Below, piece by piece: positions 11,974-56,559 of a stretch of 64,000 nt of DNA. The stretch spans positions 620,001 through 684,000 of the forward strand of contig NZ_MDGQ01000005.1 of assembly GCF_001747105.1 (NCBI RefSeq), read 5' to 3'. Numbering within the stretch: position 1 is the first letter of the stretch; every line of letters begins with the position of its first letter. The stretch comes from Roseivirga misakiensis (GTDB lineage Bacteria; Bacteroidota; Bacteroidia; Cytophagales; Cyclobacteriaceae). The notes below the pieces were generated by a model. The model ran no database searches, was not told where the DNA came from, and saw only the letters and a list, made by a program, of their open reading frames with translations. The position numbers and the translations under genes are program-made.

Positions 11974-12885
11974 ATGACTAAGCCAAAATTGATTTGTGTT
12001 GTTGGGCCAACTGCTGTTGGCAAGACTGGTGTGGCTATTCAAATTGCTAACGCATTAAATACAGAAATAATATCTGCTGATTCAAGACAATTTTATAGGG
12101 AGCTAGAAATAGGCACTGCGAAACCTACGGCTGATGAATTGAAACAAGCAAAACATCATTTTGTCAATAACCTGTCAATTCACGACGACTACAATGTCGG
12201 TCGGTTTGAGAAAGAGGTGATCGCCAAGTTGAAGCTCCTGTTTAAAAAACATCAGACTGTAATTTTAGTTGGTGGCTCTGGCTTATTTGTAGATGCAGTA
12301 TGTAATGGTCTAGACGCATTTCCTAAAATTGATGAAGCGGTTAGGCCGAAGCTAATTCAAGAGTTTGAAGATAATGGTCTTTCAAACCTTCAAGATGAGC
12401 TTAAGGCGACCGACCTTGACTATTACAAAATAGTCGATCTAAAAAATCCTCAAAGAGTCATACGAGCCCTTGAAGTAATCAGAGGTACTGGGAAGACTTT
12501 TACAGAGTTTAGAAAACAAAAACCCAAGGAAAGAGACTTCGATGTCATCAAAATTGGTTTGGCTATGGAAAGAGAGGAACTCTACTCGCGCATAGATGAT
12601 CGTATGGATCAAATGATTGAAAATGGCTTATTTCAAGAAGCTCAAGAGTTTCAATCCTATAGTCACTTAAATGCGCTGCAGACAGTGGGCTATAGCGAGA
12701 TTTTTGGTTATCTCTCAGGTACTTACGATAAAAATGAAGCCGTTCGATTATTGAAACGTAATTCCCGAAGGTATGCTAAAAGGCAACTTACCTGGTTTAA
12801 AAGAGATCAACAGACAGTTTGGTTTAATCCTAACCAAATTGATCAGATCCTAAATTTTTTAACTGGTGAACTTAAAATTGCCTAA
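11974..12885 (+). CDS. miaA: tRNA dimethylallyltransferase
   Basis: A 303-residue enzyme that adds a dimethylallyl group to A37 of tRNAs reading U-starting codons. The P-loop GPTAVGKT is at 11-18. The DSRQFYRELEIGTAKPT and VGGSGLF segments and the C-terminal RRYAKRQLTWFKRD motif are family hallmarks. Length is normal. Its 3' end overlaps the convergent LemA-like gene by 14 bases. Confidence 0.95.
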   Translation: MTKPKLICVVGPTAVGKTGVAIQIANALNTEIISADSRQFYRELEIGTAKPTADELKQAKHHFVNNLSIHDDYNVGRFEKEVIAKLKLLFKKHQTVILVGGSGLFVDAVCNGLDAFPKIDEAVRPKLIQEFEDNGLSNLQDELKATDLDYYKIVDLKNPQRVIRALEVIRGTGKTFTEFRKQKPKERDFDVIKIGLAMEREELYSRIDDRMDQMIENGLFQEAQEFQSYSHLNALQTVGYSEIFGYLSGTYDKNEAVRLLKRNSRRYAKRQLTWFKRDQQTVWFNPNQIDQILNFLTGELKIA

Positions 12886-55703: not shown

Positions 55704-55723
55704 TTGACAAAGAGATGGCTGAT

Positions 55724-55768
55724 TGTGGATAACCATGTTTATAACCCTGTGGATAACTGTGTGGGTAA
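55724..55768 (+). other. array of four DnaA-box-like 9-mers at 12-base spacing
   Basis: TGTGGATAA (complement of the consensus TTATCCACA) occurs at 55724 and 55748. Between and after them, TGTTTATAA at 55736 (two mismatches) and TGTGGGTAA at 55760 (one mismatch) keep the same strand and exactly the same 12-base step. A weaker fifth copy may lie at 55772. This is not coding sequence. It could be part of oriC, a DnaA titration site, or a DnaA-controlled promoter for the RNA-like region downstream. No dnaA or dnaN gene is near. Confidence 0.65.
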
Positions 55769-55860
55769 AAGAGTGGGAAACTTGTTGAAAACTAGGTAGT
55801 TATCAGTCTTGCGTGTAAAGTTATTAAAGGTACCTTAGATATACCAAGTGAGGGATAAAG

Positions 55861-56559
55861 AACAGAAGCCTAGCTTCAGTCTCTCTTCGGGGGAAGCCCG
55901 AAAAAATGTCGTGAATGGGCTGTACATGAAAATGTCAGTCTGAAATAGTCAGAGTGAGCTGTTTGTATCATTGGGAACGTAAGTGACGAATGATACGGTG
56001 GAAATCGTCCTTTGTGGCGACGACTAAAGTGTTTGTGATCACTACTTTGAAAGGGAGTAATCATGAGACGTTCAAAAATCTTTCTATGAAAGGTGCTAGA
56101 GCAACACTTCATAACAGTTGGTGAACAATTTTATCGAGTAATCGGTAAAAGTGTAAATCAGATTAAACCTAGGTTATATCTAATCACGGTCAGCGATTAC
56201 TGGCGACAGTAATTGACACAAAGCCTCGGCTGAGTGGAATATGTCAGATCTTCTTGGGATGATTTAGACAAAGAACGTTGACATTTCACCCGAAAGGATG
56301 AAACAAAAGACTACAAAAGCTTCATTTAACCTGTTCTGTGCTGTGCATGGAAATATAGGTGAAGCCGTGAAGAGGCAGCGCTTACACTTAATGGTTTCGG
56401 TCGTTAAGAATGAGCAAAGTTCTAAACAGTACCTTGGCATTAAGAAATGGTGTTAACCATTTCTTAATGAAGAGGGGGCGAGTAATCGTCCCCACTTTGT
56501 TATTTGGGGGTATTTGAAAAAATACGGGAAGAGACCGCTGGGGAGCGGTCTCTTTTTTT
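55861..56559 (+). ncRNA. candidate large structured non-coding RNA
   Basis: Within the 961-base gap there is no credible ORF, but hairpins are dense. They include GAAGC-CTA-GCTTC (55865-55877), TTCGGG-CCCGAA (55886-55902), GTATCATT with AATGATAC (55965-55996) and TCGTC with GACGA (56005-56023). ATTACTG with CAGTAAT closes on a GCGA tetraloop (56196-56213), with an outer GTCA/TGAC. CATTAAGAAATGG is a perfect 13-base stem (56438-56469). GGGGGCGA with TCGTCCCC closes on a GTAA loop (56474-56493). The final hairpin is the terminator. GNRA loops and the T run read correctly only on the plus strand. It does not match what I know of tmRNA, RNase P RNA, SRP RNA or group II domain V. The 5' end is uncertain. 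Confidence 0.55.
56530..56559 (+). terminator. strong rho-independent terminator ending the structured region
   Basis: A perfect 10-base-pair stem, AGAGACCGCT with AGCGGTCTCT (56530-56539 and 56544-56553), a GGGG loop, and six further T. No protein gene ends within 800 bases upstream, which argues that a non-coding transcript stops here. Confidence 0.92.

Follow-up and report, generated by a model that had tools for sequence, protein, structure and literature searches.

The 64,000-nt stretch of DNA analyzed here (the window; Roseivirga misakiensis, NCBI RefSeq assembly GCF_001747105.1, contig NZ_MDGQ01000005.1, positions 620,001 to 684,000 of the forward strand) holds a noncoding RNA (ncRNA) gene of about 740 nt on its plus strand, at approximately 55818-56559, with an inferred 5′ end. 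We are almost certain, by comparison with its relatives, that this stretch is a free-standing structured ncRNA of a new Cytophagales family. Alignment of the copies shows a shared predicted architecture, in which the 5′ end is conserved, a long-range helix (P1) encloses a variable domain with multiple branches, and a 3′ hairpin and an intrinsic terminator complete the RNA. Most copies also have, just upstream of the putative promoter, 9-mers that resemble DnaA boxes and are arranged in an oriented row. We propose, with moderate confidence, that the family acts in trans and is controlled by DnaA.

Covariation and the helix P1

The evidence for a conserved structure comes from two alignments within the genus, A1 for the 3′ domain and A2 for the 5′ domain, and from a wider one, A4, with 48 sequences, made up of 8 of the 18 long-form Roseivirga copies and 40 of the 49 remaining ones. 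Three models were used: R1 for the 3′ domain, R2 for the 5′ domain, and R3, built from 48 sequences. The features of the locus are as follows.

55724..55791, plus strand: row of DnaA-box-like 9-mers (TGTGGATAA type) at 55724, 55736, 55748, and 55760 (12-bp spacing) and at 55783, all in the orientation of the RNA
55782..55811, plus strand: putative Bacteroidota-type promoter, conserved in the alignment; −33 TTG at 55782-55784, degenerate −7 element at 55804-55811
55818..56559, plus strand: RNA gene, about 740 nt, kept in 18/19 genomes of the genus, with covariation
55844..55848, plus strand: P1 5′ strand (CCAAG), fully paired with the 3′ strand in 67/67 members and 27/27 further copies
55850..55902, plus strand: 5′ domain, a GAGGGAU/GUCUCUC stem around a GAAGC hairpin, then a UUCGGG/CCCGAA hairpin (A2 covariation count)
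56433..56437, plus strand: P1 3′ strand (CUUGG), directly after a conserved AACAGUA (alignment and pairing)
56438..56469, plus strand: 3′ hairpin common to the family, with a loop that is often CUACGG, of the UNCG type; two-sided changes in 13/13 pairs in A1 and A4
56474..56493, plus strand: G-rich hairpin; in relatives a U-run follows here (GGG..CCC-UUUUUGUUUUU), resembling their terminator
56494..56525, plus strand: conserved UUUGUUAUUUGGGGGUAUUU and a GAAA-looped hairpin, genus-specific (alignment and covariation)
56530..56559, plus strand: intrinsic terminator, with two-sided changes in 8/13 pairs

A preliminary description of the window, made from the sequence alone, had suggested looking for covarying base pairs in related Cytophagales, and these are abundant. 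In A1, 24 of 48 pairs change on both sides, where shuffled alignments give 14.8 ± 1.9, and the number of two-sided cells is 104 vs. 31.7 ± 4.8; neither value was reached in any of 500 shuffles. Controls in which the structure was slid along the alignment have 7-12 two-sided pairs. The 5′ domain is more conserved. There, 4/17 pairs are two-sided, with 13 cells vs. 4.0 in shuffles (0/500), and two of five measures do not rise above the shuffles, namely the number of two-sided pairs (49/500) and the pair types (276/500). When every pair of columns in the full alignment is scanned, 10 helices have at least 2 two-sided pairs, compared to 0-6 in 20 row-permuted controls, and some of the ten are likely to be chance. 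In A4, 20/21 pairs vary on both sides, with 246 two-sided cells vs. 86.9 ± 9.4 in shuffles (0/500) and 35-95 in slid controls; because a model of this 3′ core had selected the rows, the pair counts are biased towards that structure.

P1 is a long-range helix between the 5′ end and the strand that precedes the 3′ hairpin, and it is part of no model. The 67 copies in which we inspected it are the 18 of Roseivirga plus 49 others (48 outside the genus and one paralog in a Roseivirga genome, G014). All five of its pairs are standard in every one, while in 2000 trials with re-dealt partners the number of complete helices averages 45.7 and never exceeds 53. The combinations observed are CCAAG/CUUGG (31), UCAAG/CUUGA (15), UCAAA/UUUGA (7), CCAAA/UUUGG (6), and the wobble form UCAAG/CUUGG (8); the motifs used to locate the strands favor YCAAR and YUUGR, and thus it is mainly the changes within these classes that are informative. 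The 27 copies outside A4, six of them from a second Cytophagales family (f8, see below), add ACAAG/CUUGU and CCAAU/AUUGG, both of them compensated and absent from the list above. A separate reading of 30 loci identified 13 copies, all 13 with a complete P1 (5 were already in A4), and one more copy clipped at its 5′ end.

The density of hairpins noticed in the preliminary description is real. The plus strand folds at −242.6 kcal/mol, compared to −183.8 ± 8.7 for 20 dinucleotide shuffles (z −6.75), and the reverse strand is also more stable than its shuffles (z −7.73), thus folding energy alone neither fixes the strand nor proves an RNA. Both GNRA-looped hairpins reported there are present, as stems with GAAA loops (56510-56515/56520-56525 and about 56284-56303), and so is the strong 3′ terminator, a stem at 56530-56539/56544-56553 followed by a T-run. 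The stem that had been counted as 13 base pairs is indeed there, at 56438-56451/56456-56469, as a perfect stem of 14 bp. The start needs correction: transcription is inferred to begin near 55818, and the proposed start at 55861 leaves the P1 5′ strand outside.

As had been stated, there is no plausible protein in the region. The longest stop-to-stop frames on the plus strand have 40-90 aa across the 18 genus copies. On the minus strand, frames of 73-87 aa between stops occur at the conserved 3′ end and can be aligned among up to 14 other relatives. We put this similarity down to DNA conservation rather than coding, because the alignment has gaps of 1-2 nt there.

We compared the RNA to Rfam 15 with gathering cut-offs. 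The window has no match, and the RNA region searched at E ≤ 10 returns seven rows, none near the cut-off (best E 0.18). Among 20 homologue loci the only hit is an unrelated cobalamin riboswitch (L179:7908-8001, clipped by the end of the locus), and 17 further loci searched at E ≤ 0.5 yield nothing above cut-off except two tRNAs in L274. The models for OLE, ROOL, and GOLLD, which we take to be present in Rfam, do not match the RNA of the window. The transfer-messenger RNA (tmRNA), RNase P RNA, and signal recognition particle (SRP) RNA of this genome all sit elsewhere; the preliminary description had found none of their motifs by eye. A literature search with partial coverage found no description of the RNA, which is not proof of its being unpublished. 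The absence of Rfam matches together with the many compensatory changes in relatives bears out the suggestion of an undescribed structured RNA.

Distribution, size, and copy number

In a nucleotide search that covered 99 genomes, 18/19 genomes of the genus (G000-G018) had the RNA, and the one genome without a match, G017, is 80% complete. NCBI classes Roseivirga in Roseivirgaceae; we take the family in which we sampled, f1, to be Cyclobacteriaceae in GTDB. A match in a further genome (G038) from this first DNA search lies within a coding gene and was discarded as chance. The RNA is not restricted to the genus, since relatives were found with R1 and R3. The R1 matches in other genera are weak, and they share a core formed by UAACnGUAnCUUGG, a hairpin of about 13 bp with a CUACGG-type loop, and a GGG..CCC hairpin that runs into UUUUUGUUUUU. 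Six of the 55 R1 rows were dropped as false (L190, L199 on both strands, L200, L176:2234-2311, and L206:1764-1921), leaving 49 copies; at least three genomes in the R1 tally are therefore false. When R2 is run on the fetched loci, it gives 23 rows with low scores (E 0.0003-2.3), and for 21 of them an R1 match follows downstream on that strand.

R3 reaches further: at E ≤ 1e-5 it matches 91 of 235 sampled genomes of the family, and these represent 37 of 84 genera. It also finds 51/390 genomes of the order and 5/395 of the phylum, the latter all in f1 (E ≤ 1e-4). Family rows at 46-55 bits were checked in part, and L265, L267, L268, and L269 carry P1. The second family, f8, was used in no model and has 9 genomes with an R3 match, and the copies examined score 62-75 bits. 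These assemblies are 1.2-1.6 Mb in size and 62-93% complete, and 7/9 have two copies of the RNA (L225, L227, L231, L233, L235, and L236 are among the loci). In L231, the RNA copy is preceded by an additional 5′ part, as if partly duplicated.

The RNA was expected to be large, and this describes Roseivirga, with its ~740 nt, and not the family at large. Outside this long form, the length from P1 to the end ranges from 213 to 613 nt across 49 copies, and is at most 328 nt in 45 of them (213-328 nt). The Roseivirga size is for that reason due to an expanded domain within P1. Genomes have up to 4 copies of the RNA, many of them several, and tandem copies are found in several genomes, for example G195, G218, G237, and G254. 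Two Roseivirga genomes also have a shorter second paralog (L170 in G014, of about 255 nt, and L261 in G001).

An exact scan for the 3′ motif in genome contigs gave 30 stretches, of which 16 are true copies, all from Roseivirga or other Cytophagales; the remaining 14, and 3 viral stretches, are chance matches.

The DnaA-box-like row and the putative promoter

The preliminary description overlooked the row of DnaA-box-like 9-mers upstream of the RNA. Its boxes in the window start at −119, −107, −95, −83, and −60 relative to the P1 motif, and no other run of at least three boxes at 11/12-bp spacing occurs in the window. Reverse-complementing TTATCCACA gives the 9-mer TGTGGATAA, give or take one terminal letter according to the register; this 9-mer corresponds to the E. 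coli DnaA box as read on the opposite strand. Next to the row is the putative promoter, in which the −33 and −7 elements were assigned with what we take to be the Bacteroidota consensus. The pattern TTG-N18-21-nnnnT[T/G]TG is found in 49/66 members, compared to 6.6% of background windows.

In the 240 nt upstream of these 66 members, exact TGTGGATAA occurs 38 times on the RNA strand and 0 times on the opposite strand, where shuffles predict 0.2. Allowing up to 2 mismatches, there are 265 boxes on the RNA strand vs. 22 on the opposite strand and 49.6 in shuffles; the members are related, so that box counts are not independent events. Box pairs with starts within 15 bp are 11 or 12 bp apart in 114 of 119 cases. 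Runs of at least two boxes at this spacing, that is, closely spaced boxes beside a promoter, as looked for in a DnaA-regulated promoter, are found in 61/66 members and in 0/66 on the opposite strand; background windows have them in 78 of 6000, from a pool that includes the rows themselves. In the 27 further copies, boxes in the orientation of the RNA number 84, and those in the opposite orientation 21.

The E. coli DnaA protein favors pairs of boxes separated by 2-3 bp, according to PMC11317965. This separation equals 11-12 bp from start to start, thus the spacing of the rows agrees with the E. coli preference. In addition, the genome of the window has two exact boxes upstream of dnaA, and its DnaA contains GGRDHSTVIHA, which we take to be the signature of DnaA domain IV. 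One exact box also lies in a candidate origin close to the skew minimum of a sister species (G001). Putting these together, DnaA probably controls most copies of the RNA, a claim we make with reserve.

Two other occurrences of similar motifs can be mentioned. Collections of plasmids and phages returned nothing beyond similarities of 37-46 bp, to an Erwinia phage and to Acinetobacter; the latter are unannotated stretches about 85% identical over 46 bp to the row (55723-55768), and perhaps represent another DnaA-box row. In the sister species G001, three box-like 9-mers with 11/12-bp spacing are found away from the RNA (L064, minus strand, about 12115-12138 in reverse-strand coordinates).

Interpretation and comparison with known systems

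How could such a system work? DnaA would assemble on the row and regulate the promoter, and as a result the output of RNA would track the state of replication in the cell. The RNA would act in trans, most likely via a protein that binds the conserved strands beside P1 (GUGAGAGAUAAA and UAACnGUAR), and the expandable interior could carry contacts specific to each lineage. More tentatively, DnaA may directly drive or repress this conserved trans-acting RNA from box rows outside oriC, and the RNA would, as DnaA-ATP changes, exert feedback on initiation or growth. We rate a role of the RNA in replication control a little below even odds.

Several observations weigh against a DnaA-controlled, trans-acting family. 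The row is not universal: of the 27 further copies, 3 are without boxes and a fourth has just one, and the short second Roseivirga paralogs lack the row (0 boxes in G001, 1 box in G014). R2 alone, run across 390 genomes of the order, finds just 8 genomes, all of the genus. With R3, 144/235 family genomes have no match at E ≤ 1e-5 under strict filters, thus the RNA is either dispensable in the family or has divergent copies that were missed. And synteny offers no partner gene hinting at a target.

Among the alternatives, the one we consider least unlikely is that a different regulator, whose site is similar, binds the row, and that we are dealing with an ordinary structured RNA of the OLE/ROOL type, controlled by growth or stress and serving as a protein scaffold or an RNA-only assembly. 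Its length, density of structure, and unknown function do recall the ornate RNAs described in PMC12286853, but the box sequence and the 11/12-bp spacing fit the preference reported for E. coli DnaA (PMC11317965). Somewhat less likely still, the row could be a locus for DnaA titration or reactivation, similar to datA or DARS, in which transcription modulates or reads DnaA occupancy and the RNA has little function of its own. Closely spaced, oriented boxes are what such a locus would have, and in G001 and G195 the row lies away from the skew origin; on the other hand, selection on the RNA structure is strong, and several copies retain the RNA without boxes.

That the RNA is a Cytophagales 6S RNA overlooked by Rfam is very unlikely. 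The 6S models in Rfam do not match the RNA itself in the window or in the 20 + 17 loci, and the lack of a 6S-Flavo match in six genomes, which could be read in favor of an overlooked 6S, says little because the controls are silent too. A 6S RNA has the shape of one long bubbled hairpin, whereas the fold predicted here is closed by P1, multibranched, and has two 3′ hairpins, with up to 4 copies per genome.

The gene neighborhood bears on whether the RNA is instead a cis-regulatory leader. A TetR-ABC exporter operon is downstream in 12/18 Roseivirga genomes, which is the argument for a leader of that operon; but a terminator separates the two, other genes are downstream in the remaining 6/18, and no downstream gene is common across genera, which makes the leader highly improbable. 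Apart from generic ABC-transporter proteins near 4 loci, no single neighbor recurs across the genera, and sharing is confined to groups of related genera. Since the downstream genes vary within the genus and no neighbor recurs across genera, the RNA gene is, as judged from its surroundings, free-standing. In 10/18 Roseivirga genomes (L042-L047, L050, L052, L053, and L055), the divergent adjoining gene resembles, by a motif, glutaminyl-tRNA synthetase.

Finally, row and RNA might together be the chromosomal replication origin with its transcript, as a cluster of DnaA boxes and two of three G169 copies would allow, but this is as improbable as the leader, given the distance from the skew minimum in G001, G195, and the third G169 copy, and the several copies per genome in many genomes. 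In the sampled stretches, the RNA is not at the GC-skew minimum, where oriC is expected, in G001 (cumulative minimum at ~3.33-3.35 Mb, RNA at 0.504 Mb) or G195 (minimum at ~1.3-1.7 Mb, copies at 3.45 Mb, coarse sampling). The result for G169 is mixed: one copy at 4.87 Mb is far from the minimum, and those at 0.553 and 0.561 Mb are within the coarse 0.5-1.0 Mb interval that holds it. G001 has a candidate oriC elsewhere, an AT-rich gap near the skew minimum with TTATCAACA, TGTGGATAA, and TGTGGAAAA (L094, C1:3283519-3283625).

We return to a trans-acting RNA under the control of DnaA. What we have is a structured RNA family of two Cytophagales families, including small assemblies of 1.2-1.6 Mb, without any Rfam match. 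The link to DnaA boxes makes a specific idea testable, the control of a structured RNA by the initiator from sites outside the origin; if true, Cytophagales would have an RNA arm of replication control. The compact relatives make structural work practical.

With OLE, ROOL, and GOLLD, as they are presented in PMC12286853, the RNA shares being large, structured, free-standing, bacterial, and of poorly known function. ROOL and GOLLD are, by the same source, borne by phages and prophages, often near tRNAs, whereas in the Roseivirga loci examined our RNA is among ordinary genes. It also differs from all three in having no Rfam match and in the compact size of 45/49 of the other copies. The CcnA RNA of Caulobacter crescentus, compared by the description in PMC8959179, is likewise an ncRNA gene linked to DnaA boxes, and CcnA is also linked to the cell cycle; here the boxes are upstream, and the gene in G001 is far from the skew origin. 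As for the targets of E. coli DnaA with double boxes (PMC11317965), the 9-mers are 2-3 bp apart in both systems, while the row found here often has more than two boxes and stands before an RNA gene.
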